A stretch of DNA of 64,000 bases from positions 4,183,001 through 4,247,000 of the forward strand of contig NC_089864.1 of assembly GCF_036373705.1 (NCBI RefSeq), in the 5' to 3' direction. Numbering within the stretch: the first letter of the stretch is position 1; the number at the start of each line of letters is the position of its first letter. Shown one piece after another: positions 14,844 to 63,730 of the stretch. The DNA comes from Amia ocellicauda (taxonomy: Eukaryota; Chordata; Actinopteri; Amiiformes; Amiidae). The position numbers and the translations under genes were made by a program. The notes beneath the pieces were generated by a model. It saw only the letters and a program-made list of their open reading frames with translations, ran no database searches and was not told the DNA's origin.

Positions 14844-16718
14844 TCAGACCTGTTGAGATTCTATCCATCTCTCTCTCACTCTTCCCCTGAAACACAGTCT
14901 GTGCCCAATGATCACTGCAATCCCAGTGACAAGCAGCAGCACTGCCACCACTGCCACCACTGCCACCACTGCACCCACCCTGGACCTCCTGAGAACCCCC
15001 GACCCTGCAAGACAAGGGTAGGTAAATTCAAGGGGGGTAAATACAATCAGCTTCAACAAGGGAGATAAAAAGCCTCAGGGGTCAGTGAGCAGCAGCCACG
15101 GCTGTGCTTCAGCTCTTCAGTGATCTGTGGACTCTAGTGGGACTCACTATCACATAACAGGCTCTTACCTCTCACAGTGTCACACACAGACACAGAGACG
15201 TTGCTGACAGTGCGGTTGTTCCCTGACTCCCTCAGTGTGTAGTTTCCCTGGTCAGCTGCTGTGAGTGAGCGCAGGGTCAGAGAACCGTTCTGCACTGACA
15301 CTCTGTGCTCGTACCCGGGGCCAGGGCGACTTGCTGCGTCCCTCTCCACAGCGCACACTGAGACACAGGCTCCCTCTCCTGCAGCAGCAAACAGCACCTC
15401 CACCGGCCCAGGAGAGTAGAGCGGGAGAGACAGCGAGGCTCCAGATGGCAGGGTGAGGGCGTCTCTGTGAGCTGAGAGGATGAAACAGGAGAACATCAGC
15501 CTGAGTCCAGTCTCTCATCACAGCCCTGATCTCCAGAAGTGCCCGGCCCCTGTCCTACCTGTCACAGTGACGTTCACAGTGCTGATGGTCTCTCTGCTCT
15601 GGGAGTCCAGCACTGTGTAGGAGCCCTGGTCAGTGAAGGTCAGTGCAGACAGTGTGACCTCCTGCTCCTGCCCTGAGACTCGAGGCACATAGGCAGGGTC
15701 AGGGGTCACGGTGCCGCCCTCTACAGCACACACTGGGAGAGAGGCTCCAGCGCCCGCAGGGTTAAACCACACTGTCACAGCTGCCCTGCTGTACAGACGG
15801 AGGCTCAGGGGCTGCCCATAGGAGACAGAGCTGCTCTCCTCACGGCCTGTGGAGAGAACATGTTGTACATAAGAAACCAGGTGTTTGTGTGTGTTGGGGT
15901 AGGGATGGGAGGACATGCGAATCAAGACATTCCGATTCTTACCTGTGATGGTGAGACTGACATCTCCGAGAAAAGCATCCTGTTTTCTCTGTCCCTCACA
16001 GAAACACTCGTATATCTCTCCATCAGAGAGCAGTGTGTGCTGGAGGGTCAGAGAGAAGTCCCCCTGTCTGATCCTCTCCAGGGGAACCTCAGTCCTGTTC
16101 TCAAACCCAGGACCGGGGTAGACTGTGCCTCTCCTGAACACATAGACATCCTGATTCACTGTCTGCCACTTAATGTAGAGCTGCTCTACAGGAGTCCCTC
16201 TGTAGGCTGATCCATCACAGGGCAGAGTGACGGAGTCCCCGACTCTCACTGACACTGAGACAGGAGCTGAGGAGACTGGAGAATGGAGAAAAGTTGACAT
16301 CATACTGCAAAGAGGAGACCTAGAGAATATTGTCTTAGAATAAGGAAAACTGCAAAAAATAAACAAAACATGATTCAAAAAACCTTGTCTGAAAGTATTC
16401 ATATTCTTCAAATGTACACAATCGTATTGACATATACAGCTCTGGAAAAAATTATGAGACCACTCCAAGTTCAGAAACCAATGTTAAGTGGTCTCTTAAT
16501 TTCTTCCAGAGCTGTAGATTACTAATTAAACCATACATATTCAACAACTATATTTTTCATAGTTTGTTAAATACTTGTTCAGTTTAGAGAAAACAATCTT
16601 AACTAAAATATCTAAGACAGGATTTTGTCACTATACTGAAATAATCAAATGAAAATAAAGAAAAATAACCTTCCTTGCCTCCAGTCATAACTCCAGCCAG
16701 GACAATCCACTGAAGCAT
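14844..16718 (-). CDS. G2: three-Ig-domain transmembrane receptor, reverse strand
   Basis: Five exons on the minus strand: 16718-16679, 16266-15943, 15846-15559, 15471-15169, 15004-14844; 371 residues. Leader MLQWIVLAGVMTG, V-type domain (14-121), two Ig-like domains without the canonical disulfide (122-217, 218-318), transmembrane helix about 327-351, and a short basic tail without tyrosine. Odd points: exon 1 is followed by GC (G|GCAAGG), so a GC-AG intron is needed; the second Cys of the V domain (SACRG in G1, G3, G4) is Tyr here; the helix is written by a 9-nt repeat giving VVAVVAVVAV. The tail differs entirely from G1 and G3. A CAG-GTCTGA at the end leaves room for a further exon. Phases fit throughout. 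It is the only cluster member on this strand. Confidence 0.75.
14930..14985 (-). repeat. 9-nt tandem repeat coding the G2 membrane helix
   Basis: CACCACTGC is repeated on the plus strand (14941 onward), so the minus strand reads GTGGTGGCA repeatedly, that is VVA. The repeat lies within the last G2 exon and supplies the first half of the transmembrane helix. Confidence 0.8.
16438..16515. mobile_element. short palindromic MITE with TA flanks
   Basis: About 80 bp with inverted ends CAGCTCTGGAAAAAATTATG and CAGCTCTGGAAGAAATTAAG, both bordered by TA. The structure is that of a non-autonomous Tc1/mariner-type element. It lies in the first intron of G2. Confidence 0.6.
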
Positions 16719-19563: not shown

Positions 19564-22264
19564 ATGAGGATCTGCTGGATTGTTCTGGCTGTGACTGTCA
19601 CTGCAGGTAGGAGATCAGGATTCTCTGATTGTTTCTTTCTTTTGCATTAATAAGCACATGACCAGTGGTGCTGCTGTGTCTCAGTCTGTCTCTGCACTGT
19701 GTCTCTCAGTCTCCTCAGATCCTGTCTCAGTGTCAGTGAGAGTCGGGGACTCTGTCACTCTGCCCTGTGATGGATCAGCCTGCAGAGGGACTCCTATAGA
19801 GCAGCTCTACATTAAGTGGCAGACAGTGGATCAGGATGTCTATGTGTTCAGGAGAGGCACAGTCCACCCCGGTCCTGGGTTTGAGAACAGGACTGAGGTT
19901 CCCCTGGAGAGGATCAGACAGGGGGACTTCTCTCTGACCCTCCAGCACACACTGCTCTCTGATGGAGAGATATACGAGTGTTTCTGTGAGGGAGAGAGAA
20001 AACAGGATGTTTTTCTTGGAGATGTCAGTCTCACCATCACAGGTAAGAGTGTGAACGTCTCAATTTTCCTGTCCTAACCTGTCAAAACTCACAACCTAGT
20101 TCATATTAATTATAAGGAACTCCCAATCACATTTAATGTTTCAGTATTAAATAATACAAAGTGTATTTTATGTTAATACAATAACATAAGTCAAGGGAGT
20201 CATGTCAGTCTCTATCGCTCATAGTGTTGTTTTCTGTCCTTGTTTTTAAAACGAAATGCAACACTATCCCACAATCGCTCTGCCTCTTCCCACAACAAGG
20301 ATGGGTTTTATAAAATTAAATAAAAATGATAAAATAATATAATGACTTAAGAGAAGTTTTGATATGTTCCACATTGTCCTGTCCTCTCTCTGCAGCTCGT
20401 GAGGAGAGCAGCTCTGTCTCCTATGGGCAGCCCCTGAGCCTCCGTCTGTACAGCAGGGCATCTGTGACAGTGTGGTTTAACCCTGCGGGCGCTGGAGCCT
20501 CTCTCCCAGTGTGTGCTGTAGAGGGCGGCACCGTGACCCCTGACCCTGCCTATGAGCCCCGAGTCTCAGGGCAGGAGCAGGAGGTCACACTGTCTGCACT
20601 GACCTTCACTGACCAGGGCTCCTACACAGTGCTGGACTCCCAGAGCAGGACCATCAGCACTGTGGCCGTCACTGTGACAGGTAGGACAGGGGCTACACTA
20701 GATTTCTCAGCTCCAGGTGTTCATTGTCATTAACCATGTTCATTTTCTGTAAAATACATATATACATTATGACTTAAATGGAAGTCAGTCCTGATCTAAA
20801 ATTAATTTATTCTCATTAAATCCCAAATCAGATTTGTTCGAATTGCTGTTTCCAGCCGTATTGATGGCCTCCTGTCTCCTAATGTCTCTCAGCTCACAGT
20901 GACGCCCTCACCCTGCCGTCTGGCACAGACCTGTGCGTCTCTCTGCTCACTGCAGAGCCGGTGGAGGTGCTGTTTGCTCCTGTGGGAGACCGAACCTCTG
21001 TCCCAGTGTGCGCTGTGGAGAGGGACACTGTGTTCAGACCCGGCCCCGGGTACCAGCCCAGAGTGTCAGTGCAGAACGGCTCTCTGACCCTGCGCTCACT
21101 CACAGCAGCTGACCAGGGAAACTACACACTGAGGGAGTTAGACAGCAGCAACACCATCAACACCGTCTCTGTGTCTGTCACTGCAGAGGGTAAGTGTCCC
21201 TTTAATAACACTGTTATACACTGTATAGGGTGTGTCTCAGATCTGGTCCTTGGGGAACATTGACCTGATTTTAATTCCAACCAAACTCTCATTAATTGAA
21301 CTCACAATAATCCTAATCACACCTTTTTAATGATTACAGCTGGGCTTTTGAAGTTCAATATAAAATAACACACTTGAATTCTATGGAGTGAGTTCACTGA
21401 CAAAATAAGCGAGCACAGAAATACAACTTGTACGTGCAAAACTATACTTATGTTTTTTATTTTAGGCTTACAATTAAATTCTGTGCTCGTTCAATATTGT
21501 TTACACATTTGCAGGTTCGTTTACATATTTGCAGTTCTCGCTGCGTGCTCACGCTTCTTGCTGCGCATGTGCAGTTCTCTCTACACGCTCGCAGTTCTTT
21601 TTGACAGTGTTTTCACACTGACTAGTAACAACGCATAGATCAGGCATCCTAGATGATCATCAATCTCCATTTTCATCACACATGGCTGACCACATGGCAG
21701 CAGATGCAGAGTCTAAAAAAACCTTAACATGGTTTAATGACAAGACTGACACTTTCCAAACTGTTACACAAAGGATTGGATGTTAAAGTGCCGTGTTAAG
21801 CCCTAGACAGACGTAATTGTGCTTAATGTTGAACTCAAATGGTTTACTGTACTTTCAGATGTAACCATTTATATTCAAACTTTATAATTAACAAGACTGG
21901 CACCACCCAGGCTGATAGACACAATATGTAATGTTCAAATTGATATTAAAAGCAAAAGTAAAGTTAAGTCTTGTTGTAGCCAAGTGCAGAAATGTGCTGA
22001 ATGGACCTCTGTGCTGCTGTCCCACTGAGAGACCTCTACTGCAATACTCACAAGTGACCAAATTCATTTTACTGCTTTGTTGTTTTTCTTCTAGAATCGG
22101 GGTTCCTGGTTGGCCTGGTCACAGTGATCTTAGTTTCGATCTTAGTGCTGATCTCAGTGCTGGGACTCGCTCTGCTCTGCTGGCACAGACGGCGTCGTCA
22201 CAAAGACTGTGTGAGGATCACCGAGCCCCAGCTCGCAACCCAGCACTGCAGCTCGGACCAGTAG
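19564..22264 (+). CDS. G3: three-Ig-domain transmembrane receptor with shortened tail
   Basis: Exons 19564-19606, 19719-20042, 20396-20680, 20893-21189, 22095-22264; all phase 1, 372 residues. Leader identical to G1 (MRICWIVLAVTVTA), V-type domain (15-122), two Ig-like domains without the canonical pair (123-217, 218-316), helix about 319-347, tail ending SSDQ. Exons 1-3 and the intron 20043-20395 are almost identical to G1; the third Ig exon is distinct (SGTDLCVSLLTAEPVEVLF) and has its own longer upstream intron. The stop TAG at 22262 stands where G1 has GAG, so the tail is about 38 residues shorter than in G1; a nonsense change is likely. A polyadenylation signal follows at 22633. Confidence 0.8.
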
Positions 22265-25058: not shown

Positions 25059-26441
25059 ATGCAGATCTGCTGGATTATTCTGGCTGTGACTGTCACTGCA
25101 GGTAGGTGATCAGGATTCTTGGTTTCTTTCTTTTGCATTAATAAGCACATGACCAGTGGTGCTGCTGTGTCTCAGTCTGTCTCTGCACTGTGTCTCTCTG
25201 TCTCCTCAGATCCTGTCTCAGTGTCAGTGAGAGTCGGGGACTCTGTCACTCTGCCCTGTGATGGATCAGCCTGCAGAGGGACTCCTATAGAGCAGCTCTA
25301 CATTGAGTGGCAGACAGTGGATCAGGATGTCTATGTGTTCAGGAGAGGCACAGTCTACCCCGGTCCTGGGTTTGAGAACAGAGCTGAGGTTCCCCTGGAG
25401 AGGATCAGACAGGGGGACTTCTCTCTGACCCTCCAGCACACACTGCTCTCTGATGGAGAGATGTATGAGTGTTTCTGTGAGGGAGAGAGAAAACAGGATG
25501 TTTTTCTTGGAAATGTTCGTCTTAACATCACAGGTAAGAGTGTGAATGTCTTTGATTGAATGTCTGCTCTGTTTTCTGTGTGGCTGTTTACCTGATATTG
25601 TTCTGCACAAATAATGGCAATTTCAGGTTGTTTCTGTTTTAATGACCCAAGTCTCAAACTCTTCCCCATACAAGAATCCTTCTGTCCTCTCTCTGCAGCT
25701 CGTGAGGAGAGCAGCTCTGTCTCCTATGGGCAGCCCCATAGCCTCTGTCTGTACAGCAGGGCAGCTGTGACAGTGCGGTTTAACCCTGCGGGCGCTGGAG
25801 CCTCTCTCCCAGTGTGTGCTGTAGAGGGCGGCACCGTGACCCCTGACCCTGCCTATGGGCCCCGAGTCTCAGGGCAGGAGCAGGAGGTCACACTGTCTGC
25901 ACTGACCTTCACTGACCAGGGCTCCTACACAGTGCTGGACTCCCAGAGCAGAGAGACCATCAGCACTGTGAACGTCACTGTGACAGGTAGGACAGGGGCC
26001 GGGCTCTACTGGAGATCAGGGCTGTGGTGAGAGACAGGACTCGGGCTGATGTTCTCCTGTTTCATCCTCTCAGCTCACAGAGACGCCCTCACCCTGCCGT
26101 CTGGAGCCTCGCTGTCTCTCCCGCTCTACTCTCCTGGGCCGGTGGAGGTGCTGTTCGCTGATGCAGGAGAGGGAGCCTCTGTCTCAGTGTGCGCTGTGGA
26201 GAGGGACACAGCGAACCACCCTGGCCCCGGGTACGAACACAGAGTGTCAGTGCAGAGCGTCTCTCTGACCCTGCGCTCACTCACAGCAGCTGACCAGGGA
26301 AACTACACAGTGAGGGACTGCAGCACCGGCCGCACTGTCAGCACCGTCTCTGTGTCTGTCACTGCAGAGGGTAAGTGTCCCTTTAATAACACTGTTATAC
26401 ACTGTATAGGTGTCTCAGCTCTGGTGCTTGGGGCACACTGA
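25059..26441 (+). CDS. G4: three-Ig-domain receptor without membrane exon
   Basis: Exons 25059-25101, 25210-25533, 25699-25986, 26074-26370, all phase 1. Leader MQICWIILAVTVTA; V-type domain with TLPC, SAC and YECFC; two disulfide-less Ig-like domains, the third with an extra Cys (VRDCSTG). G1 and G3 have the membrane exon 640-900 bases after the third Ig exon; here that stretch is A/T-rich and then an L1-Tx1 LINE begins. No helix-coding exon was found up to V1. If the last donor is not used, translation continues 24 residues to a TGA at about 26439, giving a secreted product of about 340 residues. So this is either a decayed gene or a secreted form. Confidence 0.65.
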
Positions 26442-27330: not shown

Positions 27331-29514
27331 CTAGCACCTCAGGGTAGAAGATGTCAATCCCCTGGCTGGACCATATAGGATCTGCTGGGCAGTCGCCCGC
27401 ACAGGAACGGCAAACCTGTGGAGGAACGGAGAAAACAGGAGCCAGACCCTGTAGGCGGAGGGGCAATCCCTAAAGATATGAGCCTCCGTGTCCTTCCCCA
27501 GGCAACCCTTGTAGGGGCAGATGTCATAAGGGGCTAGGCCCCTTCTGTGCATGAACACTCGGGTGGGGAGACACCGACTCACAGCCATCCAGGAGACATC
27601 TTTCTGCGTATTTGTGAGGCAAACGTGCATAGCGTTAGCCCAGATAAACCGGCAGGTTTCGGGAGGGAAATCTTCTATCCGGCTGGTCTCCTGGGTAGAT
27701 CTCATCTGGCTACAGATGGTCTTATAATCCCAGGAGGCCAGCACGACTTTATGGAGGCCTACTTCTAGCGCAAAGGCTCGGAGCACCCTGTAGAACGGCG
27801 GGGGATCCCACGAGTGCGGCCTGGTGTTATCCATGGCGCAGAGGCCGAATGGTCTCAGGCTGCTGGCAAAATAAAAGCGGTTCATAATACTCACAGCAGC
27901 CTGGATGTTCTTGACCACGTAGGCCAGCCCCTGCGCCTTTATCAGCCGCACAACGTCCGGGACCCCCCTGCCTCCATCCAGGGTACCCTTCACCATCTGC
28001 ACTCTTTTCAGCCTCTCCATTTTGCTCCCCCAGACAAACCGAAATATGATCCTGGTCACTAGTTTTGCGACGACCTTGTCTGGGGGGAAGATCATTCCTA
28101 CGTAGAGGAGTATCGGGAAGAGGATGGCCTTTACGACCAGCACCTTACCGGCCATCGTCAAGGTCCTTGTGCTCCAGCCGTGGATCTTTCTTTGGACTTT
28201 AGATAAAGCCTCCTCCCAACTCCGGGTGCCCGTGTTGGTCCCGTCGATCGTGATCCCCAGAACCTTGATGGACGGCTTCACAGGGAACACGGTCGGCGGG
28301 CCCCGGCCGACAGGCCATGCTCTGTAGAGGTAGACCTCGCTCTTGGCCCTATTGACAGCGGCCCCCGTCGCCCTGCAGAAGCCGCCCAGCAAGTTCCTCA
28401 ACCCTGGCCATGGACGGCGCGTCCGTGCAGACCACAGCCACGTCATCCATATAGGCCATGGCTTTCAGTTGCTCTCCGCCGGAACCCGGGAGATGGAAAC
28501 CTGTCACCCGGACGTCCCGGTGGATCGCCTGCATGAACGGCTCCAGACAGAGGACGTATAGCAGGGCCGACAGGGGACAACCCTGTCGGACCCCCGACCT
28601 GACCGGAAATGGTTCGGTCAGGTGGCGGTTCACAAGGACCCTGCTGCTTAGGCCGCTGTAGATGATCTTAACCCACTTCCTCAGGCCAAGAGCGAGACCC
28701 ATCCTCTCCATGACGAGCTGCAGGTATTCGTGGCCCACTCTGTCGAAGGCTTTCTCCTGGTCCAGGCTGATTAGGACCAGGGGAAGCCCTCTCTCGTTCG
28801 AGTAGGCCACGACATCCCTGAGCAGCATGGCGTTGTCGGCCGCCGATCTCCCCCGGGCACCGCAGACCTGGTTGGGACCCACGACTTGAGGGAGTGGCCG
28901 CTGCAGACGGAGCGTCAGTGCTTTGGCCAGTATCTTGTAGTCGGTGCACAGGAGGCTGACCGGCCGCCAGTTCCACAGATCCTTTGGATCTCCCTTCTTA
29001 TGATGAAGAGAGAGGATACTCCTCTTCATAGAAGGGGCCAGTTTACTCTCTCTGTACATCGACCCCAAGACCTGAGCCAGATCTTCCTTAAGCACCTCCC
29101 AAAAGATCTTATTGAATTCAGCAGGGATCTCATCGGGACCCGGTGTCCTTCCAGAGTTAAGACTATCACCTGGGAGAGTTCAGTGGTGGTGATCTCTGGA
29201 TCCTCCTCCGCCTCCTCGTCCCCCTCGTTGCGGGACTCCAACAGGGACAGAAAGTGATGGATCAGATTTTGATCCACCACCTTCTGATCGTACAACTCCC
29301 TGTAGAAGTCCCACACTACTGTCTCAACAGCCTCTCTGCCCTCCACCTCCTGCCCCGAGGAGTCGATCATGGAGGACATTGCAGGCCGCCTCTCCTTCGT
29401 TTTCTTGCGGCTGCACTTCTCGTCGTCCTCCATGATGCGGACCCTGGAAAGGACCTTGATCTTCTCTTGCTCCTCCCGATAGAGGGCGGAGAGACTCAGT
29501 TTGACCCGAGCCAC
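27331..29514 (-). pseudogene. LINE ORF2: reverse transcriptase and C-terminal region
   Basis: Read on the minus strand in at least three frames. The reverse-transcriptase core shows WRPVSLL, LDQEKAFDRV, GVRQGCPLS and AYMDDV (28442-28453). A frameshift near 28350-28450 separates it from the rest: AVNRAKSE, LGITIDG, then a distal CPYKGC...H...C motif followed by SAYRVW. It would copy the LINE RNA at a nicked target. The breaks make it inactive. Confidence 0.75.
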
Positions 29515-30262: not shown

Positions 30263-31640
30263 AGAAACCCTCCTCTTCCCCACTTCTCTCTTCTCCCTCA
30301 CCTAGCTTAGCGCTCGCACCCATCATTTCAACCATTTGCCTCACCGCTTGATCCTCTAGGAAGACTATGTGGGGGGCTCGGCTCCCGCCACCCGGTAAGG
30401 CTGGCGAAACTCCACTGGGCTCAGGGCCCGCGGTGCTGGAGGTTCTCGCTGGTTCCCTTGTAGCCGAGGCCCGAAGAGCAGATGGCAGGGCAGAGGCTTT
30501 GTGTGCGACTGAGGAGAGGACTGGATAGACCCCGCTAGTCGTTCTTTTAACTAATGGTGGGGGAGGGGGTGGTCTCTCCCTTCCCGGCTGTCTGCTGCCG
30601 CAGGCCTCCTCCCTCAGCACCAGTGACTCCGCCATTGCGGCCCTGAGGTCTTCTTGGCAGAAGACACTGGCGCTGACTCTCCTCTCCTGAGGACCTGCGG
30701 CTCTCCCACTACTGCCGGGAGGGCATACCTCCCCTGAGAGAGTCTCGGTCGTGGGGCTGGAGGGATGTTACTATTATGGGGCCTGTCCTCCACCAGACTG
30801 CCCACTGGGGGGAGTGGAGAAGGCCCACAACTCTCCGCTCCGGACTCGGAGTGGGGCGTATAAAACTGAGAGGGAGAGGTCTCAGCGGGGGGGGTAGCTG
30901 GCAGGGGGGGGAGAGCCAGCAGAATTAAACCTCTTGCTCTTCGCACCCCCCACACCCATACTCCTCTTCTCTGTCCTTCGCCTCTTCCCCGCCACAACTG
31001 TCCACTCCCCCTCTGCCTCCACTTCCGACCCAGAGTCGGAGAGGGAGCTTATGAGACTCCTGAGGACTGTTTCCTCTCTACCTCTATCTAGGGAAATCTC
31101 CGTTGGAGGAGCCTCCACTTGATTTTCTGTCTCTCCACTACACCCGAGGGCCCGCGCCCTATTTGCATAGGAGGAGGGACAATTCCTGAAAAGGTGCCCT
31201 CCCCCACCGCACAGGTTGCAGGCCCTCTCCTGCTTGCAGGCCCTGGTCAGGTGTTCCCCGCCGCAAACCTTGCACTTAACAACAGTGCAGGCTGCGGCTA
31301 AATGACCCAGGGCCCCGCAGTTCCTACACAATTTGGGCATGCCATGGTAAAAGACAAGCCCCCTATTTGCACCTAAAACTACGGTGCTCGGCAGGTGGCG
31401 TACCTGCCACCGTCGAGCACCGGTCCAAACCCCATCCTCGTCATTGACTCTCTTGCTTTCAGACAGGATCTCACAGTGTCTCCTCAGCCATACCTCTACA
31501 TCATACTCTGCCACTGCTTCGTTATAAAACTGGATGGTAACAATTTTTATTTCTCTATCGGTCAGGGCGTCGACCACAAAGTCACTCAGGGGCAAACATT
31601 CCTTTTTTTCTCTATAAATGTTCCAAAAACACTCCAGCAC
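30255..31640 (-). pseudogene. LINE ORF1 with three zinc knuckles
   Basis: The 252-residue frame 31640-30882 contains CRNCGALGHLAAAC, CKVCGGEHLTRAC and CNLCGGGGHLFRNC, three CCHC-type knuckles (the second has CX2CX3HX4C spacing). A basic stretch GKRRRTEKR follows. The rest continues in other frames to 30255 and is rich in Pro and Ser. It is an RNA-binding, Gag-like protein of a LINE, now frameshifted. Confidence 0.7.
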
Positions 31641-32277
31641 TTGTACTGGAGTAAGTACTTATTAAGTAACTTAATTTAACCATGTTGATACAAATTATAA
31701 TAATAATAAAAACTTAAATATAACGCTGTTCATACTTACCTCAGAAATATGAAGCTCTTCACTCACTGGCAGACAGCTCTTGTCCATCCGCAGCGAAGCC
31801 CATCTGGACCAATGAGAGCAGGGCCGCTGCCGCAGTCTATATAGCGCCTCTCACAGCCAGTGCTTCTATACATACGGGCAAAGCAGCCTTCGGTGCCATA
31901 TACAACCCCAAAGAACAATTTTGCACACTGAGACAGCTCGTCTGAACAAGGAAGTCAGAACAACATAGGCCACAATGCGGGGCTGCAGTAACAGTACAAT
32001 GCAATGCGCGCAGCCGAGGGATAACTAGACAGCAACTCGGTGCAATTAAGTGTACAACCACAATCAGCTATTTATAGATTTGTACGTTACAATTAATTTG
32101 TCTTCCTCGGAGTACCATATGTGTGTGATCTGTGTCAGGGGTGACAAAAAAACAAACTATCAAGGTAAGGACCCTCCAGAACTCTTCCCCTCTAGGTGGG
32201 TGTGCAGCCCCCCAGTGCGGAAGCTGCTCATCCGCCCTAGAGCCCCAGTCTCTCCAGTGCAGTCAGTGTCTGCTGAG
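31641..32277 (+). promoter_or_regulatory. candidate promoter region of V1
   Basis: CCAAT at 31809-31813 and TATATA at 31838-31843 lie about 440 bases before the V1 start codon. The surroundings are GC-richer than the flanks. GACCAATGA also occurs at 60231-60239 before V2. The region could instead belong to the LINE's 5' side; orientation is not proven. Confidence 0.35.
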
Positions 32278-32394
32278 ATGGACGGGCTGGACAGCAGGGC
32301 GGCTCTGCTCCTCTTCCTCTGTGAGTACTGCGACTGCCGGATAACTTTATAAGATTTTAGTCAAAGGAAGTGAATGACACTAAATACAATTATG

Positions 32395-32445
<51 letters not shown>

Positions 32446-35400
32446 TCCATCACTGTTTCCGATTACAAAGTCTGAACTGATCCGGGTATTCATCAATTGA
32501 AACGATCACACAGTACGGGACACCCAGGACTGTCGTACAGGACAGGCAACCAACTCGGCCTCTAATACAACACAAACTTCCCATCAAAGAACAGGGCTTT
32601 GAAGAAACAATTCATGGCTATTTTGCAAATTGCACATATTTCGACGAAATGCGTGTTACGGTAAAAGCTCAATAGTTCAGTAATCACGACTATTTATTGA
32701 ATAATGACATTTATTAATGTATGTATTTATTTATTAATTAATTTCTTTGCAGACGATTGTTTTAAATACGAAATACCATTTAAAGCAAGCATACAATCTC
32801 GTTGGGTTTCAGTGTTTGGAAGAGTTTATATTTGTGGATAGACTTGTACATAAATAACACTATAATAACATACATACAATGTAATAACGATATATCGTTA
32901 ACTACTTTACAGATAATACAATTACATTATAGACAAAGCACAACAGTTTTCAAAGCATTTCAAGTTTTACATTTTGAGAGAACAGCAAGAAACAGAAAGA
33001 TAACTAATTGATTTAAGAAAAATACGAATTATAATTTAATTTAATTTTTATGGGGGTTGATTAATACTTTCATTGTAATTTAAAAATCGAAATGCAATCG
33101 TAAGATTTGGATAATTTATATAAACGAACAATTACGCACTGTGTGAAAATAGCATTCCGGTCATGTTTTACATAAGGAATCCTATACCAACGTGTGCATG
33201 TAATAATAATATAAATAGCCTAATGATAATTTATGAAGCGCATTTCAATATTGACGCAAGGTCGTACAAAAAAGGTAAAACATTTAAAATGTAATAAAAC
33301 CAGCTTGCAAATAATACAAGCAAATAATTTCATGATGATAATAATGTGGCCTAATTGAGTTTAAAACAAGACATTAATTTCATTTAATACAATAATCGGA
33401 ATCTAATCGAATATTTTGTGCAATAACAATTTAGATTGCATATACTTATATGTATTTAATATGTCAACGTTTCGGCGACAAACGTTCTGAAGCGTAGCAT
33501 AATTAAAGGCGATTTATATGATTAGGCTTTTTATAATAATCTTTTAAATACTATTTATACTATACTATTGTAGTGGTGTCTGTCCTGAGCCGCTCCTCTG
33601 TGTCCCGCTGCTGTAGTGGTGTCTGTCCTGAGCCGCTCCTCTGTGTCCCGCTGCTGTAGTGGTGTCTGTCCTGAGCCGCTCCTCTGTGTCCCGCTGCTGT
33701 AGTGGTGTCTGTCCTGAGCCGCTCCTCTGTGTCCCGCTGCTGTAGTGGTGTCTGTCCTGAGCCGCTCCTCTGTGTCCCGCTGCTGTAGTGGTGTCTGTCC
33801 TGAGCCGCTCCTCTGTGTCCCGCTGCTGTAGTGGTGTCTGTCCTGAGCCGCTCCTCTGTGTCCCGCTGCTGTAGTTCTGGTCCAGCGGGAGAGTCTGTGT
33901 GAAGCGGCCGAGCGGCGGACTGTCAGAGCCGGGGACACCGTCACCCTGGACTGCGGTGTCAAACACGAGCGGGAAACCGTGTGGTTTGGACAGCGAGGCG
34001 AGGAGGCTCCGGTTGTGGTGGTCGCAGTCAGTACACCACTGCCCGGAGAAGATGCTGGTTTCCAGAAGCGGACTGCAGCCTCTGCTCGCTTGTCTGCGCA
34101 GTGGAACTCCTCGTCCAGCACCTTCAGTCTGCGCATCCACAACATCAGCGACTCAGACCTGGCGCTGTACTACTGCGGGGGGAGGGCTAATGGAAGTTGG
34201 CGATTTGGAAATACAATCAGAATCGTCTTTACCGGTAGGAAAGCTGAACAAATCTTCGAAAATGTTCGTTAAGTAATTAAACTATTATTTCGTTAAAATA
34301 ATAAACTCCGCTCGATTATGTAGTTTCACAGATAGTCTCTGACCAACCATAGAAAAAACACTGCAAGGAATTGAACTGGGTGAAGAACTCTCTCTCTCTT
34401 TTTGTTTGGTTTGGCTTCAGTAGAAGAGCCCAGTGACCCTCCCGTCTCTCCCCCTGCCCCCTGTGTGCTGAGCTGGGCGCTGCTGGGCTGTGTGTCTGCA
34501 GGCTGCCTCCTGCTCTCCGGCTGTCTCTGCTGTCTCTGGAGCAGGAGAGGTGAGACACTGAGTTGTGGTGCAATTTTGCAGTCTGATGCACTAGTGATGG
34601 TTGGATACATAAACATTTTGATTTATCTATTAAACATACAAACTGAAAACTGAAAAACACTTGCATTTTCCTTGTTGTTTGTTAAAAATGCATAAAACAG
34701 TAATTGAGGCAACTGCAACACTTACAGCAATAGTTGAATACATTGTGCTCCCCTAACTCTCTGTCTGTGTCTCTGTGTCCAGGTGGTGTTCAGTGTGTCG
34801 GGGCGCAGAGGAGTCCAGGGCAGAGCAGGAGTGAAGGAGCAGCGCAGGTATTGTGTACAGTCCTGATGGACACACTGTAGAGAGAGGAGCACACAGGGGA
34901 GCCGCTCGACACACTGTAGAGAGAGGAGCACACAGGGGAACCACTCGACACGCTGTACAGAGAGACGCACTTATTATCAATTGAAAAATTGGACACCCTT
35001 TGGCAAGTGGGCAATATCATACACATGGGGTACAACATAAAACAATTCAGCAATACGATCAATAGAGTGACTTAGAAAAATGCAGATGTTGATGTATTAG
35101 TAGTGCTGGACAATACACCAATGCAAGTCGATTGTAGTGACCTGTGAAGAGCTACAGCTGTTAGACACCAGAGTTATTACACACTTACCACCTGCTTCCT
35201 AGGATATTACATTAATACATAACATGTTTAAAAATGTTGCAATTTAGCTCAGTGCTGCTAATATCAATTGTCTCCAGGGCAGTGCTGTGGGATACAACTT
35301 TCAAATTAAATTCTTCTTCCACTTTATACTGATGTCTCGCAGGGGGAAGACAATGATGTGAGTTACACCCCTCTGGAGATCCGTACAGAATCCCGATGCC

Positions 35401-35471
35401 AAAGCACACATCCTCAAGAGAAGACAAATATTTGCACTTTCTCTGAAATTCTTTATGTTAGAAAATACTAA
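32278..35471 (+). CDS. V1: single-V-domain inhibitory-type receptor
   Basis: Exons 32278-32320, 33875-34234, 34421-34549, 34783-34847, 35343-35471; junction phases 1,1,1,0 fit and give 241 residues. Leader of 14 residues (MDGLDSRAALLLFL); V domain 15-134 with TLDC, ETVWFGQ, SDLALYYC and a degenerate J-like RFGNTIRIVF; transmembrane helix about 150-173, rich in Cys and without charge; tail with the ITIM-type VSYTPL (Tyr about 207). It should sit on the surface of leukocytes and recruit SH2 phosphatases; this role is inferred. The J-like end and ITIM recall novel immune-type receptors, but WFGQR with a GN-TR end also resembles other unnamed fish V-domain receptors. The V exon is directly preceded by a 43-bp minisatellite repeating its splice acceptor. 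Confidence 0.8.
32397..32445. repeat. (AAT)n microsatellite in V1 intron 1
   Basis: About 16 uninterrupted AAT units, 80 bases after the V1 leader exon donor. Confidence 0.9.
33571..33871. repeat. 43-bp minisatellite, 7 units, abutting the V1 V exon
   Basis: TAG occurs at 33571 and every 43 bases to 33829, then at 33872 as the real acceptor of the V exon (starts 33875). Each unit contains CTGAGCCGCTCCTCTGTGTC and CCGCTGCTGTAG, that is a branch-point-like CTGAG, a pyrimidine-rich tract and an acceptor. The units appear identical by eye. The long antisense open frames over it are artefacts of a repeat whose length is not a multiple of three. Confidence 0.95.
34870..34965. repeat. 39-bp tandem repeat in a V1 intron
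   Basis: ACACACTGTAGAGAGAGGAG starts at 34870 and again at 34909, with a degenerate third copy at 34948. V2 has the same repeat with about one and a half copies at 63451. Confidence 0.8.
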
Positions 35472-45875: not shown

Positions 45876-48800
45876 ATGTGGATCTGGTGGATTGTTCTGG
45901 TTGTGACTATCACTGCAGGTAGGAGATTTTCTGTTTCTTACTCTTTTTATGTTATTTTATGTTAACAAGAGCATGACTAGTGATGTTGCTGTGTCTCAGT
46001 CTGTCTCCCTCTCTATCTCTCAGTCTCCTCAGCTTCTGTCTCAGTGTCAGTGAGAGTCGGGGACTCTGTCACTCTGCCCTGTGATGGATCAGCCTGCAGA
46101 GGGACTCCTGTAGAGAAGATCTACATTAAATGGGAGACAATAACACATCCCGTCTATGAGTTTGTCTATGGAAAGTCCTATCCCAGCTCTGGGTTTGAGA
46201 ACAGGACTGAGGTTCCCCTGGAGAGGATCAGACAGGGGGACTTCTCTCTGAACCTCCAGCACACACTGTTCACTGATGGAGAGATATACAAGTGTTTCTG
46301 TGAGGGAGATGGAAACCGGGACATTCTTCTTGGAAATGTTAGTCTCACTGTCACAGGTAAGAGAGTGAATGTTTATTTTTCCCTCAGCAGAATGTGGTTC
46401 TTCCTTTATATCCTTTGTCAAGGCTACTCATTTTAATATTGCAGGTGCCTCCACTTGTGCCCTGTTTCCACTGGTGTCTGTGGCCAGTTTTTCTGCCTCT
46501 CTTTACTCTCTGCTAACCTAGCAGAAGCAGACAGCCCACCAACAAAGGAAATATGCATACACACACACACTTACATACTTGTCTGCATTTCACTTTTCAC
46601 ACTTTCAATGGCCATTTATATTGGTAATACCAGAAACTTTCTATGCAGGAACCTATTCTTTCAACCTATTCTTAATTGATCTACTCATTCAAATTAATGA
46701 GACTGTGAGCCTGAATCAATGTATTTACAGAAGATACAATAACACCCTCTTTCCATTTCATATGATTTTACCATTTATTTAAAATATATATTGCTACTGT
46801 TATAAAAATGTGTAGTTCTGCAGTTGCCGACTTTTTAAAACCGACAAAGTATAGACGGTTGGTTTTCAAATGCAACCCTGGTTATCTGAAAAAGGAAGCA
46901 ATGCTCAAGGGGGAGGGGTTTCTGCACACTTCCGTTTGAACCCGATCAAAACGTCACTCTATCAAAGCTGCCATTGGCCCCAGCACACGTTACTCAAACA
47001 TCTCCATTCCAGTTTCTGTTTGTATAAAAGGTGATGTCTGCACAGGTTCATCCTCTTTTGCCGGGTGCTAGGACTCCCGCATGACCTTGCAACCCTTGGG
47101 CAGTGCTTCCTTTTTCAGATAACCGCAACCTTTTTTGCAACCTATCATTTTGGTTGGAAGCACTGGCCAAGGGGGAGGGATTACTGTATAACAAAACCGT
47201 CGCAAGGGAGGAGGCAGCGAGCTGATAAGGGAGCCTGCCCCGAGGCATACCAGTAGGGGGCCTTGGCAACATAACTCAAGACAGTAATTCCAGGGCCCCA
47301 TAGGGCCACACCCGAGCCGCCCAGGTGCGAGGACCGCAGTCATACTCTTACCAGGAACTGTCTGCAATCAGCATATAGAAAGCAGGGCTACAGAGGTTAA
47401 ATCTTATGGCCTCCGCTTACAATAGCAAGGCCGGCTGCTCTACCAGTGCAGCTAGGAGCAAGGCCATATATCTACTTGCACAATATGTGGCACAAGGCTA
47501 TCAGGCACAGGATTTTTTTTGTGCACTATGTACTATATAAGTCACGGTGTGCAGGAACCGTCTCATGGGCTGTTGGAGCCTTCCAAATAGCATAGCTAAT
47601 GCAAGGCAACTACAGCTCTTACCGTGTCAATAAATGAACTATATACACAGTGGGGCACTGGAGAAGCTCAAAGTGCCCTCAGCTGGACAACAATAGCAGC
47701 GGTCCCCTGCTCCATGGCGTTTACACAGCAAGAGCGGGCCACAGACCTGCTGACCAAGGAACTATATACACAGCGAAGCAGCAAGAACAGCTTGAGTGCC
47801 ATCAGCTGGGAACAGCGGCAGTGATGCTCCTGTCTACTATATCAAGGACAGAGCCACAGACCTGCTGTTTACACAATATCTGTACATAGCGGGGTACAGG
47901 CCAGACACTGTCACAGTTCAAAACACATCCCCAGTTCTCCACTAAATGTCGCCATTAACTTTCTTTTCCAGTCACTTCTCCCAGCTCCAATCATTCAGTC
48001 AACATTCCTGAAACCCATGTGAACTTTTGCAATCACCCTCTTCTTCGCCCTGCACCTCCTAACTTGGTTTTCTGTTCCACTTATAAACCCTTCACTAACT
48101 CCCAGCCTTTGCAAAGTTTTGTCAACTCTATCTACAATTCCTAGCTTTCTCCCCGTGCCTTGTTTAGCCTTGTTGTTGCCTTGTATCTTGACCTCCCGCT
48201 TGACTTCCCAACCATGACCTTGATCGTCCCGATTGCTTATTTGCCTGATCGCCAGACCCTTGCCTGTGACCACGACCACGTCTTCGCCTTGTCCTGATTT
48301 GCCCTGTTCTGCCGTTATCCGACCCATGCCTGTCTGACCACCTCTACTATGCACCGCAACTGGGTCCCCTGTTCCTGTGCCCCACGGTACGTTACAGACG
48401 CATGCGCCATCGCATGGGTGCTCGACTGGAAAGCATAGTTTGGTGGAAGGGAAAGACTTGGTTCAAATAGATCCATCCAGGATATTCTAACAGGTGCAGG
48501 TGCAGATGACAAATCCCGCAGGCTACTGGGGCTCGACTGCAGACAACACTGGGTTCCCAATGGAAGGGACTGGTCCCGTCACATCCAACCTGTAGAACCG
48601 GACAAATGTTAGCGGCGAGGCCAAAGCTGCAGCTGCACAAATGTCTGCCAAGGGGGCACCATGGAAAAGGGCCCACGATGTGGCAACGCCTCAAGTCAAG
48701 TGGGCCACCAGCTGTTCAGGCACCGGGGTCCCGGTGGACTCATAGGCCATGGTAATGGTGTCCACAATCCAATGCGAGAGGCGCTGCTTTGAAAGCACCT

Positions 48801-51800
48801 GGCCCTGTGTGTGACTCAACTGCACCGAAGAGAAGGGAGGAGGATGGAAAGCCATCAACTCAGTAGACCTGTTGACATGGAATGGAGACTGCATTTTCGG
48901 GGGAACGCAGCGTTAGGTCGTTGTGTGCAGGGTCATCTCCCATCTCTCGCAAAACAGACACACGATGGGTGTATGGACAGGGCGTGTAACTCGCTCAAGT
49001 GTTTTGCAGAGGTGATTGCCAGAAAAAATGCAGTCTTAAGTGACACCAGCTTCAGCTCAGCCGAGTTCAATGGCTCAAATGGTGCTTGGAAAAGTGCGTC
49101 CAGGAGACTTACCCTGGTCCAAAAGCTCCTGTAGAAATTGTAATAGGACTGGGTCATGACCCCTGTCTTGGCACCAGGTCCTAAACGTTTGCCAGCACTA
49201 GGAGAACTGCAACCTCATAGAGCAGAGGTAGTCAATTACTTTGTGTCAGGGTCCAAATTTCTTGGTCAAGGTATAGTTTAATATAGGTATAGTATATAGT
49301 TTAATATAGGTATAGGTTAATATATATATTAACCAACATTGTGCAGGCAAACTAGACACTAGGTTTCTGGTGCTTGTCAATCACATATCTGTGTTGGTGG
49401 GTCTCTGTAATTGAAACTTGTGAGGATGCACAACTCTCGATGTATGTGCTGCTAGAAATATGCATCTTCATTGGAAATCTGCTTTTTCCACCTCTGATGT
49501 AGGAGCTTCTAGGTGAATACAAACTATGACACTGTTCATTAAAATTATTCTCCCAGTCCAGTCAAAAGTGTCTGGCGGTCCGGATTTGGCCCACAGTCCG
49601 CCTATTGACTACCCCTGTCCAAGAGCTCTCGCCGACTGCATAGAGGCTACTACCGCATCTGACAGACCCCAGGCCATCAAGCGATCCCGCTCAGAATCCA
49701 GGCCCAAAGCTGGAGTAGGCCTGGGTTGGGGTGCCAGAGCATGCCCTGCACCTGGGACAACAATTCCACTCGTAGTGGGATCTGCCAGGGCTCTCTGTTC
49801 AGGATGGAGGTCAACTCTGTGAACCAGAATCTGGTTCAAACATGGCAATGGAATCGAGTGCCTGCTGAGTTGGCGTCAGGTGGCTCCTCTCTAGATTGAC
49901 CCGGAGGCCCAATTCGGAAAGAGACGGACGAGATGCAGGTTCGTGTGGCTCTGATCCTGCTCCCTGGAGTGAGAACAGACCAGCCAGTCCTCTAGATAAT
50001 TGAAGACGTGGGCCCCCTGGGAACAGAAAGGGGCTAACACGATGTCCATGCACTTGGAAAAAGTGCGTGAGTCTAGTGACGGGGAGAACAACAAACTGAA
50101 ATGCTCAGCCTTTGAAGGCGAAGCGGAGAAACTTCCTGTGTGCCTGCGCAATGTGGATGTGAAAGTACACCTTTCAGATCCACCGTGGATCGCCCCACAG
50201 TTTGGGAACTACAGAGTTAAGGTATTATTAGGAACATGGAGTAATGTCAACACAGAATGATAATAGTAATTGAAAGAATGATAATAGGTTCTCAAAGAAC
50301 CTTGTTTCGGACGTGCTGCATTTAAAAGGCACTCTACATGGTTAGCTTTTATGGAAGCTTTCTAGTGCCAAAATACAAACAAATACATATGTTGTAATAT
50401 AAAAGTTATCAGGGTATTGCATTATGGGATGCTGTGAAATTGTGAATCATAGTATTTTAATGCCACACATAAATGTAATACTAATGCTTTACATTGCTTA
50501 AAGCACTGCGATGGTAGTGACTGAATTAAATGTAATACACACATTGCATTGCAGTGCGTCAGTGTTTTATGCGATGGCTCTGCGTGAAGAGTGCCCAAAT
50601 CAGATACAATGTAGGGGCGGAGACTGGATCCGATTAAAATCCTGGGGCAGGATTATACAAGAATACAGATATACAAAAACATAATTTAGTGACGAAACAA
50701 AGATACGTCTGAAAACATATGCTTTATTCCAATTTAAGTCAGCAGGTAGTCTTCGAACTTCAGACTTCTCAGAACAAACTTGCCACAGTTTTACTTAAGT
50801 TTCTGCCAGCACATATTTGAATACTGATAATTTCAGAGATCTTGGGTGGTTAACTGTGGAGGACAGAGTTACTATGTTTAAGGTAATTGTAGTGCACATT
50901 ATTGTTTCAGTGCTGGTCCAAGTTACGTTGATGGATATTTTACAGGAGTTAGTGATTCTCATAACCATAGAACAAGAGCCAGTGAGACAGACAGGTTAAG
51001 GTTTAGCTTCTGTCCTAATGTCTCTCAGCTCACAGAGACGCCCTCACCCTGCCGTCTGGAGCCTCGCTGTCTCTCCCGCTCTACTCTCCTGGGCCGGTGG
51101 AGGTGCTGTTCGCTGCTGCAGGAGAGGGAGCCTCTGTCTCAGTGTGCACTGTGGAGTGGGGTGCAGCGAGCCGCCCTGGCCCCGGGTACGAGCAGAGAGT
51201 GTCAGTGCAGAGCGGCTCTCTGACCCTGCGCTCACTCACAGCAGCTGACCAGGGCCAGTACACAGTGAGGGACTCCAGCACCGGCCGCACCGTCAGCACC
51301 GTCTCTGTCTCTGTCACTGGAGAAAGTAAGTCTCCCTGTCCCCAGTCAACCCACTGTTCTACTAATTTTTTTCAAACCGAGCTCTCAGCCGCGACTGGGG
51401 AGGAGTTCGCTGAACTCAGTCTTCCTACCCGATACTACACACCCGAGCCATGCCAGGCCAGGCTCACTAAAACCTAAATCTAACTAAAACACTACGTGCA
51501 CCGTGTCGTCTGATCCACCTGGGGGAAGTGTAGAACTACAGTCAACTAACTACGGTTTATTATACGGTAGTATACGGTTTATTATAAAAAAGGGTTTATT
51601 TTTTAGAAGAACTGCACTGTGTAACCAAACAACACTGGGACTAGTGTCCATACTGAGGGTCCTGACATCAGTACAGAAATGTGCTGAATGGACGGACCTC
51701 TGTGCTGCTGTCCCTTCTGAGTGACCTCTACTGCAATACTCATAAGTGACCAAATTCATTTTACGGCTTTGTTTTCCTTCTAGAATCGGTGTTCCTGGTT

Positions 51801-60325: not shown

Positions 60326-63300
60326 ATGGCCGGGCAGTGCGGAGCGCCGCTGCTGCTCTCCCTCCTCCGTGAGTACCGCCACTTACTCCACTGCTGCTCT
60401 CTCTGTCTCTCACCTTGTCTCTGTCTCGCCCACTTTTCCAATGCACTTTACATTACTCAATTTACTAGGGTAACTCTAGTAAACCATGTCTGTTTTTCAC
60501 TAATATGTACACTGTTTTTGCATTGATGTGACTTTACAAGTTTCAGTTTAATACATTAGATACATCAATAAGATCAGGTGATGCACTGACTTGCACTTAC
60601 TGTAATTTTTCAGAAACGTATTTGGTGTGACTACTGTAAGTCGACTTGGGGATGGGCATCAAAGAATAAACACATTGAACTAAATGTCTGTTTAGGGGCA
60701 TTTCATGTAAACGCGCACAGTACTGTAATAGTGTAATCGGTGAAAACCAGAGTAAAACTTTATTGAATGTATTAAGCTCAATATAATATTTCGGTCACAA
60801 TTTACAAAAAGGTACCGTGATTCCTAATGAATAAATATATGGATATCACAGGATAAAAACATGAATATGTTATGCACTTATGTCAGGGGTCCTTAATTGA
60901 CCTAACAAATCAATATACCAATTAAGTAATTAAGACCTAGGTTGGAACAAAAAATAGCAGGGCAGGGGGTACTCCAGGGCCGGTTTGAAAACCACTGGGT
61001 TAGGGTACTTGCGGGTTCATGTGCTCAACATCAGAACTCAGATTATGTGCATTATGTATTTGTTTGAATTGTATGGTATTCATATATTCATTTATGAGGA
61101 ATCACGGTACTTTATTGTAAAGTGTTAGCAACATTTATGTCGGATGAGAAGAATCTGCAGATTTTATAACTTGGATTGTTTTGCAAGATAAAATTATCCC
61201 TGCAGTTTCGTGCATGACGGGAGAGATATAAATCACCTGATGCACTCACTGTGTGCCGTTTTCAGAGTGCTTTAGTTTGAGATATATTACATTTATTAAT
61301 TTACATTGTAGTCTAATCGTGTCCCTGTGAGAATTTTAAGAAAACTTTAATATTCATGCATTATTCATTGATTAAGGTAAGTCAATGACTAAATAAATGT
61401 TTCTGTGAGACCATTGTACATATTCTTTAAAGATATTTTGTATTTTGGAATTGTATTTAAAATAGTTAATCAAAAGTCATTTGTATTTGGTAATTTGATT
61501 TGATTTTGTAATGAAACACATTTACAGAGTATTTGCCCAAGCCCAAGTTGGTGTGTGATACAAAATGTACACAAAATACCTATTCAATTACATGACTGTC
61601 GGGTGAACTGAACCGTGTTTAACAGACGGCAAGAGAGCGCAGCAGATGCAGGAGCTCGGCTGTGGCTCCAGGCTGTAGAATACTCTGAGTTATCAGTCAA
61701 TCAATCAATCAATCAATCAACTCCAAACTCAATGATGCTAACCATGGTACATTTTTATTTTAGATTATCATAGTAAGGATTAAAAATAATAATTGCTCCG
61801 CTGCTGTAGTGGTGTCTGTCCTGAGCCGCTCCTCTGTGTCCCGCTGCTGTAGTGGTGTCTGTCCTGAGCCGCTCCTCTGTGTCCCGCTGCTGTAGTGGTG
61901 TCTGTCCTGAGCCGCTCCTCTGTGTCCCGCTGCTGTAGTGGTGTCTGTCCTGAGCCGCTCCTCTGTGTCCCGCTGCTGTAGTGGTGTCTGTCCTGAGCCG
62001 CTCCTCTGTGTCCCGCTGCTGTAGTGGTGTCTGTCCTGAGCCGCTCCTCTGTGTCCCGCTGCTGTAGTGGTGTCTGTCCTGAGCCGCTCCTCTGTGTCCC
62101 GCTGCTGTAGTGGTGTCTGTCCTGAGCCGCTCCTCTGTGTCCCGCTGCTGTAGTGGTGTCTGTCCTGAGCCGCTCCTCTGTGTCCCGCTGCTGTAGTGGT
62201 GTCTGTCCTGAGCCGCTCCTCTGTGTCCCGCTGCTGTAGTGGTGTCTGTCCTGAGCCGCTCCTCTGTGTCCCGCTGCTGTAGTGGTGTCTGTCCTGAGCC
62301 GCTCCTCTGTGTCCCGCTGCTGTAGTGGTGTCTGTCCTGAGCCGCTCCTCTGTGTCCCGCTGCTGTAGTGGTGTCTGTCCTGAGCCGCTCCTCTGTATCC
62401 CGCTGCTGTAGTTCTGGTCCAGCGGGAGAGTCTGTGTGAAGCGGCCGAGCGGCGGACTGTCAGAGCCGGGGACACCGTCACCCTGGACTGCGACATCGGA
62501 TTTAAGCAAGAGACTCTGTGGTTTGGGCAGCGCGACGCGGAGACGCCATTCCTGAGCATTTTAGCAACAAAAAAAACGGCAGTAGACGAACTCTTCTCAC
62601 GGTTCTCCAGAGGCGACGACCCCCGCTTCACTGTGGTGTGGGAGTCGGATAAAGACCCCCGCGGCTCCGCCAGTCTGCGCATCCAGAGCATCACCGAGGC
62701 GGACCTGGCGCTGTACTACTGCGTGGAGAGAGGAGAGGGAGGGCTTGTGTTGGGGAATGGGACCCGGCTCGTCTACGGTGAGAGAGGACTCCTGTATTCA
62801 GCCTTTCTGTCTTTCGTTACTGATGTGATCAATTGATATGATTGACATTGTGTTTCTAATTATAACGTTCACAACAAAGCGTTACAGTGGGGGACAGAAC
62901 CGGGCTCTGGTGATAGTTGCCTACTGATTTGTTCGGCTTTTATTCGAACTTTCTTATGATATTAAACTGTGATCTGGATCGATGCTGACTGTGCTTTAGG
63001 TGTCGGTTATAATTTTGATTATAATGGTCAGGATGATTGTGTTTACAGAAACCAGTAACCAGCACCCAGCCCCCTGTGTGCTGAGCTGGGCGCTGCTGGG
63101 CTGTGTGTCTGCAGGCTGCCTCCTGCTCTCCGGCTGTCTCTGCTGTCTCTGGAGAAGGAGAGGTGAGACACAGCTATGCGGACTAGATGCACTTGTGATG
63201 GTTGGATTCATTGTTACATTCAAATCAAATTTGAAGGGTTTTAGTTACAGTTGTAATCAACACTAATGGTTTATTTGGAGGCAACTGTATATCTACTTAA

Positions 63301-63730
63301 AATTTTAGTGATTGTTACATGTATTGTGCTCCCCTAACTCTCTGTCTGTGTCTCTGTGTCCAGGTGGTGTTCAGTGTGTCGGGGCGCAGAGGAGTCCAGG
63401 GCAGAGCACGAGTGAAGGAGCAGCGCAGGTATTGTGTACAGTCCTGATGGACACACTGTAGAGAGAGGAGCACACAGGGGAGCCGCTCGACACACTGTAG
63501 AGAGAGGGCCCAGATCGCAGCCAGTACTACAGTATAGTCAACAGATTTGAGCCTCTTACTATTTAAACTTTAAACTTTGAATGGCTGTTTATGGCATGTG
63601 TGTTTTTGTTGTTTATCTCTTACAGGGGGAAGATGCAGAGTCAGATTACGCCACTGTAGAAGTTCACACAGACTACAACTATGCCAATTCAGAGCAGGCT
63701 GTGTATATTCTCCAGGGTAGACCGCAGTAG
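60326..63730 (+). CDS. V2: single-V-domain inhibitory-type receptor
   Basis: Exons 60326-60368, 62412-62777, 63049-63162, 63364-63428, 63626-63730; phases 1,1,1,0; 230 residues. Leader MAGQCGAPLLLSLL; V domain 15-136 with TLDC, ETLWFGQ, ADLALYYC and a J-like LGNGTRLVYG; Cys-rich uncharged helix about 147-170; tail with the ITIM-type SDYATV (Tyr about 204) and YAN, a Grb2-type YxN (Tyr about 215). The first 81 bases of the V exon and most of the membrane and first tail exons are identical to V1, while the rest of the V domain and the last exon differ strongly. A 43-bp minisatellite with 14 units precedes the V exon. Expected inhibitory surface receptor; family name uncertain (novel immune-type-receptor-like). 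Confidence 0.8.
60369..61796. other. first intron of V2
   Basis: AT-rich, with the right half of a hAT-type MITE at about 60890-60998 (AATTAAGTAATTAAGACCTA through TTTGAAAACCACTG) and a (CAAT)n run at 61697-61720. No exon was recognised. Confidence 0.5.
61807..62408. repeat. 43-bp minisatellite, 14 units, abutting the V2 V exon
   Basis: TAG recurs every 43 bases from 61807 to 62366, then at 62409 as the true acceptor. The unit is the same as in V1; the last unit has TGTATCC instead of TGTGTCC. Each unit repeats CTGAG, the pyrimidine tract and CTGCTGTAG. Confidence 0.95.

Follow-up and report, generated by a model that had tools for sequence, protein, structure and literature searches.

Minisatellites of predicted acceptor modules in front of the V exon of nine clustered NITR-like receptor genes of Amia ocellicauda

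The window analysed here is the whole 64,000-nt stretch of DNA (C21:4183001-4247000), and the genome that was searched in addition comprises 988 Mb. In the window, we found two receptor genes of the same layout, which are called gene B and gene C (Table 1). The joined exons of both genes include a leader exon, a V exon, a transmembrane (TM) exon, and two cytoplasmic exons. The V exons encode a V-set domain (Pfam PF07686; E values in Table 1), the TM segment of both genes has no charged residue by eye, and ITIM-type motifs were found near the predicted ends (VSYTPL in B and SDYATV in C).

These genes are similar to the novel immune-type receptor family named NITR. According to PMC2442602, some NITRs lack the intermediate (I) domain, and their J or J-like motif is FGXGTXLXV. 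The likeness includes clustered genes, the leader-V-TM-C1-C2 exon order, a V-set domain with a partly J-like end, and an uncharged TM segment with an ITIM, as in the inhibitory type. However, no intermediate Ig domain (six cysteines in NITR) was found in the predicted models of B and C, in which V is followed directly by TM, and the J-like V exon ends (FGNTIRIVF, FGNATRLVY, and LGNGTRLVY) are only partial matches to the motif. Because the motif is only partial and the placement is by exon layout and domains, we call the genes NITR-like rather than NITR. In addition, the word "repeat" is absent from the main text of the NITR paper (PMC2442602).

Other elements were also found in the window. A second type of receptor, which has several Ig-like exons, occurs in repeated copies between the array genes (4679-6222, 15134-16483 on the minus strand, 19595-21263, 25110-26441, 45984-46436, and 51019-51477); two stretches of this type were tested in Pfam, and both were V-set. 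Minus-strand frames at 7770-8534, 9370-10410, 27331-29179, and 30882-31658 comprise two of Tc1-type transposase, one of LINE-type reverse transcriptase, and one ZCCHC3-like/zinc-knuckle frame, which is probably the first ORF of a LINE. A 39-bp tandem repeat (34869-34964; 2.5 copies, 92%) starts about 20 nt past the cytoplasmic exon 1 donor in gene B, and a similar stretch follows cytoplasmic exon 1 of gene C (around 63449-63508).

Table 1. Positions of the exons and arrays of genes B and C in the window
Feature	Gene	Position	Strand	Basis
Leader exon, MDGLDSRAALLLFL; codon split after first base	B (V1)	32278..32320	+	Donor CTCT/GTGAGT
Partial unit TGTAG (5 nt), left edge of array	B	33569..33573	+	Sequence, TRF
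Array of 7 identical units (predicted acceptor modules); final AG is the V exon acceptor	B	33574..33874	+	TRF, pattern match
V-set exon V1; first 80 nt (33875-33954) in homogenised block of nine genes	B	33875..34234	+	Pfam V-set, E 1.7e-10
Transmembrane exon; core is the second homogenised island	B	34421..34549	+	Sequence comparison
Cytoplasmic exon 1 (predicted)	B	34783..34847	+	Joined-exon model
Cytoplasmic exon 2 (predicted), ITIM-type VSYTPL and stop codon	B	35343..35471	+	Joined-exon model
Leader exon	C (V2)	60326..60368	+	Exon model
Second array, 14 full units; 13 equal to the consensus, last with one G>A	C	61810..62411	+	TRF, pattern match
V-set exon	C	62412..62777	+	Pfam V-set, E 6.7e-07
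Transmembrane exon	C	63049..63162	+	Joined-exon model
Cytoplasmic exon 1 (predicted)	C	63364..63428	+	Joined-exon model
Cytoplasmic exon 2 (predicted), SDYATV motif and stop codon	C	63626..63730	+	Joined-exon model

The first-pass annotation had described seven identical 43-bp units before the V exon of gene B, each with a CTGAG word and a pyrimidine-rich tract, in an array ending exactly at the real acceptor. This description was borne out. TRF called the array at 33569-33875 with a period of 43, 7.1 copies, and 100% matches; the seven full units stand in the register TGG...TAG, and the V exon starts at 33875, directly after the last of them. Furthermore, the array of gene C, which the annotation did not contain, stops in the same way, at the acceptor of the V exon that comes next in this gene type. 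A 40-nt unit pattern (≤3 mismatches) matched 21 times in the window, 7 times in the array of gene B and 14 times in the second array, while 0.00 matches were expected from 100 shuffles. In addition, none of the three antisense (minus-strand) frames is interrupted by a stop in either array (33555-34169 and 61755-62715), with no sign of a gene.

In the unit, T and C occur 14 times each, G 13 times, and A twice. One A lies in CTGAG (position 15) and the other in the terminal AG (position 42), and the 25-nt stretch that separates the two AGs contains 19 pyrimidines (76%). Since the unit has only these two A's and one belongs to the terminal AG, there is a single possible branch adenosine per unit, located 27 nt before the A of the unit's own AG. 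This adenosine would serve as the branch point. Each unit is thus a putative self-contained acceptor module with a candidate branch A, a pyrimidine tract, and TAG. The earlier proposal of repeated 3' splice sites is supported at the level of sequence. Most predicted decoy acceptors share their intronic side with the real one, because 118 of the 130 units that we counted in all arrays are identical; decoy and real acceptors differ only 3' of the AG (TGG in the decoys and TTC at the exon).

The genome was also searched with the unit pattern (≤3 mismatches, 988 Mb). We found 96 forward and 25 reverse matches (121 in total), and the reversed control pattern gave none genome-wide. All of the 100 match places listed lie on C21, and a DNA search of the genome gave at least 48 matches among its best candidates, also all on C21. 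The matches come from nine arrays within 4.094-4.394 Mb of C21, that is, from one 300-kb cluster of leader-V-TM-ITIM receptor genes (the ITIM ends were read in the B and C models). The numbers of full units per array are 9, 7, 14, 19, 6, 21, 13, 32, and 9, or 130 in total; it should be noted that these counts are from one assembly, in which long identical arrays may be mis-sized. Adding up (units − 1) over the arrays gives 96 for the forward strand and 25 for the reverse strand. These sums agree exactly with the genome counts, and thus the nine arrays explain every match.

All nine arrays stop exactly at the V exon start TTCTGGTCCAGCGG..., and the V frame is open in all nine genes. A leader exon was identified in eight of them; that of gene I was not found within 2752 nt upstream. 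Twelve of the 130 units depart from the consensus, and the terminal AG is changed in none of these. In gene H, five units share a G>C at position 19 and are spaced 6, 2, 6, and 7 units apart, which looks like block duplication within the array. A tenth gene of the cluster, called J0 (exon start 4361894, minus strand), has a leader exon and only one acceptor, with no array. In addition, short sequences surrounding more distant matches were compared with the unit at 13 loci (L030-L042; 2.0-2.9 Mb of C21). On neither strand did any 43-mer come within 10 mismatches of it; ten of these loci were treated as V exons.

The array-less J0 gave a clue to the origin of the unit. Its acceptor matches the last 16 nt of the unit at 15 of 16 positions, and none of 500 shuffles was as good. 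The unit resembles the first 60 nt of the exon no more than expected by chance (94/500 shuffles as good), as many as 284/500 shuffles equalled the match to the whole V exon, and 51/500 equalled the match to the J0 upstream sequence without its last 16 nt. The 3' end of the unit fits the single acceptor of J0, and thus it was the intron edge that was duplicated. The annotation had named a by-product of exon-edge duplication as one possibility. This is half right: the duplicated edge stands on the intron side, and an origin of the unit from the exon edge was rejected. The phase of the left edge was also rejected as a clue: homology starts at unit positions 39, 32, 40, 23, 39, and 28 in six arrays and at about 2-4 in the other three, an arc that by hand is not unusual enough. 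We propose that the leader intron's final ~43 nt, which comprise the branch A, the pyrimidine tract, and TAG, were tandemly duplicated into a minisatellite. The duplication would have taken place in an ancestral V-domain receptor gene, of which nine paralogues in one cluster now carry the array.

What would happen if an upstream AG were used? In all eight array genes with a leader, upstream AGs give a premature stop, and the last AG gives an open frame. As the annotation had proposed, one extra unit leads to a stop inside the V exon (residue 23), two or more extra units lead to a TAG at a unit junction (residue 28), and only the last AG yields protein; each of these holds in 8/8 genes. One correction is needed: the leader provides the T (or C) of the split codon, so that V begins with TTT or CTT. 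Thus, the last AG is predicted to be the only productive one, with the other AGs as decoys.

However, such stops are easily obtained. We placed six upstream copies of random units before the exon of gene B. When these units were 43 bp long and ended in TAG, every upstream AG gave a premature stop in 2000 of 2000 cases. The outcome was the same for random TAG units of 41 and 44 bp, while the stop fraction was 0.06-0.08 for TAG units of 42 or 45 bp and 0.07-0.13 for units ending in CAG. The stops occur at all upstream AGs because 43 equals 1 modulo 3 and the unit ends in TAG. Thus, the stop codons were rejected as an argument for regulation, and the stop pattern does not show selection for one productive AG.

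The first AG after a branch point is generally favoured. Vertebrate exons between long introns are recognised as units together with their downstream donor, and such recognition favours the last unit of an array. The last AG would normally be chosen through exon definition of the 360-nt V exon with its own donor, and the predicted folding of the RNA at the decoy junctions, considered below, might help this choice.

The array is about 99% identical across the nine genes, and most introns to its left have diverged. When the nine genes are compared pairwise (36 pairs), V exon identity is 99.4% at nt 1-40 and 98.5% at nt 41-80, and the windows after nt 80 fall to 72, 66, and 45%. To count fourfold sites, six representative genes were used and the near-duplicates B, F, and G were left out: the sites were identical in 223/235 comparisons for codons 1-26 versus 203/291 in the rest. 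Against J0, the corresponding values were 64/78 and 70/103. The core of the TM exon is a second island, with 0-3 mismatches in 83 positions among the nine genes and 27/83 in J0, and it is equally homogenised without any array.

Furthermore, the near-identical tract begins at the array in all three of the closest pairs (A/B, C/G, and E/F). The 600 bp left of the arrays are clearly alignable in only 2 of the 36 pairs (A/B and C/G); four more pairs score above all 20 of their shuffles. Of these, A/F and E/F owe the excess to a short match, and in A/C and E/H it amounts to one point. For C/G, the sequence to the right of the array is mismatched at 2 of 758 nt and the aligned sequence to its left at 12 of 119 (Fisher P = 2e-9); for A/B, the counts are 6 of 377 nt and 75 of about 407 (P = 4e-17, computed with 396 instead of 407); these P values are only descriptive, since the near-identical pairs were picked for high V identity. 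The V exons of E and F are identical at 355/355 positions. Left of their arrays, no BLAST match of ≥50 nt was found in about 1 kb, and a short shared stretch (46/52 nt) scored above 20 shuffles; the leader regions nevertheless match at 92% over 542 bp. In C/G and E/F, high identity extends slightly beyond the core of the TM exon (758 and 990/917 nt) before it falls off. The unit numbers within the closest pairs are 9/7 (A/B), 14/13 (C/G), and 6/21 (E/F). They differ even where the exons are nearly identical, and thus unit number changes faster than exon bases.

Two arrangements in the cluster may also be mentioned. Genes E and F (C21:4305031-4309865; L024 and L025) are divergently arranged (head to head), about 0.36 kb separates their start codons, and the sequence left of their arrays is largely unrelated despite the identical V exons. 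J0 (L029, C21:4361301-4362500) is a mosaic: its leader region is 94-97% identical to those of A, E, and F, its V exon shows 65-71% identity, and it shares neither the array nor the TM core.

From these tracts, we infer that paralogues have received copies of each other's V or V-TM cassettes, one edge of the copied segment lying in the array. In the mechanism that we propose, the V exon, the intron, and sometimes the TM exon would be copied as cassettes, and such exchange would keep both the array and nt 1-80 of the V exon uniform. A working acceptor would survive exchange in any register, because nearly every unit is a full predicted acceptor and the last one touches the exon. Similar edges were also seen in array-less relatives. 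L031 and L037 are 97% identical over 406 bp; this match starts about 30 nt upstream of the acceptor, and nothing 5' of it matches. L033, L034, and L035 are 94-96% identical to L036 over 516 bp from about 130 nt upstream. Since these relatives and the TM island show similar edges or homogenisation, the array coincides with the exchange edges and is not needed for them.

Several known minisatellites can be compared with these arrays. According to PMC5954066, the donor of exon 18 in human ABCA7 is part of a 25-bp VNTR of intron 18. One unit can be retained in the transcript, which causes a frameshift and exposes the product to NMD; a longer VNTR goes with more skipping of exon 19, but not with a change in unit retention. 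In IFI6 (6-16, G1P3), minisatellite units serve as multiple splice donor sites (Turri et al. 1995, as cited in a passage of PMC4526556). The arrays resemble ABCA7 in that the minisatellite lies directly at an exon edge, each ABCA7 unit begins with a splice-site dinucleotide, and use of the next site keeps one unit with a frameshift and a stop; they resemble IFI6 in that repeat units form alternative splice sites of an immune gene. However, both known cases concern donors, ABCA7 being one gene with a measured effect and IFI6 having downstream units reported as used in mRNA, whereas the present units are predicted acceptors in nine genes. In all nine arrays, the units abut the exon and each carries the splice-site sequence, here that of an acceptor.

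In addition, PMC2812944, on human segmental-duplication paralogues, describes variable-number minisatellites at exon-intron edges, which is similar to the present case in being found among recent paralogues. The difference is that the human paralogues have new introns or longer exons, and here a homogenised, predicted acceptor module is found in a receptor cluster. No acceptor-site minisatellite of this kind was found among the literature titles and starts of abstracts listed, which is a weak result since the prime sign of "3' splice site" cannot be searched. By analogy, the arrays are the acceptor-side, multi-gene counterpart of the donor-site arrays in IFI6 and ABCA7.

Several explanations of the arrays were compared. 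We lean towards the reading that an acceptor-module minisatellite arose from the intron end, was homogenised and shuffled together with V cassettes, leaves only the last AG productive, and is a by-product tolerated by splicing. The array would then persist mainly for this tolerance and as a convenient homology tract of exchange. It is unlikely, though not negligible, that the array is instead a selected recombination joint, kept since it promotes the exchange of V cassettes among paralogues with splicing intact; the chain of modules would then be a splice-safe joint, at which V (and V-TM) cassettes are swapped in any register with an acceptor always left at the exon. The array-bounded tracts of A/B, C/G, and E/F, the nine open V frames, and the ends of the C/G and E/F tracts near the TM exon, the other shared island, all agree with such a joint. 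However, array-less relatives have similar edges, J0 shares the leader region of the array genes and has no array, and one genome gives no rate comparison. We regard it as rather improbable that the upstream AGs are poison acceptors, with array length setting the share of premature stops and so tuning the receptor level of each gene (regulated unproductive splicing). The stops in the eight genes with a leader, the near-identical units of the nine genes, and the ABCA7 unit that can be retained, with frameshift, stop, and NMD (PMC5954066), are in line with it. However, the stops are automatic for a 43-bp TAG unit, and the coding islands are equally uniform, so homogenisation can explain the uniformity of the units. 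Furthermore, array length ranges from 6 to 32 units, and is 6 versus 21 before identical V exons, so no set value is seen; and in ABCA7 it was exon 19 skipping that changed with VNTR length, while the unit-retention isoform stayed constant (PMC5954066).

Another explanation starts from RNA structure: the unit junctions (CCGCUGCUGUAGUGG, self-complementary with wobble) would pair among themselves or with neighbours, so that the decoys are masked and the last AG is left open. With arrays above eight units cut to the last eight, the predicted mean unpaired probability was 0.003-0.007 for decoy AGs and 0.86-0.88 for the last AG in the nine genes at pair spans of 60 and 100. However, single decoy AGs reached 0.71 at a span of 150, and shuffled repeated units gave much of the same difference (means 0.44-0.76 in three controls of 400 shuffles each); 0.037-0.117 of the shuffles had a difference as large, and 0.037-0.048 had decoys as hidden. 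Furthermore, the lone acceptor of J0 is predicted to be paired (0.001-0.003 unpaired), so openness is a poor predictor. The folded array region had z = -7.1, but its shuffles destroy the tandem repetition, and one, two, and three units alone gave z of 1.3, -1.2, and -3.8. Thus, masking by structure seems a slim prospect. Least credible of all is that the unit number is an artefact of assembly or of a single haplotype. Identical units are hard to assemble, and there is a single assembly; nevertheless, the nine arrays differ in length and left edge, and some have private variants, such as the G>C of gene H. The existence of the arrays is beyond doubt, and only their exact length may be affected.

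An intronic repeat that coincides with the edges of exchanged receptor segments, as seen here, is a possible route to immune-receptor diversity without broken splicing. If the splice-safe joint is true, it would spread diversity through the cluster while the reading frame survives. Furthermore, the nine sister genes form a graded series, with 6 to 32 near-identical predicted acceptors before one exon and J0 as the array-less control. This series makes the choice of an acceptor among identical sites (first AG versus exon definition) testable in vivo.
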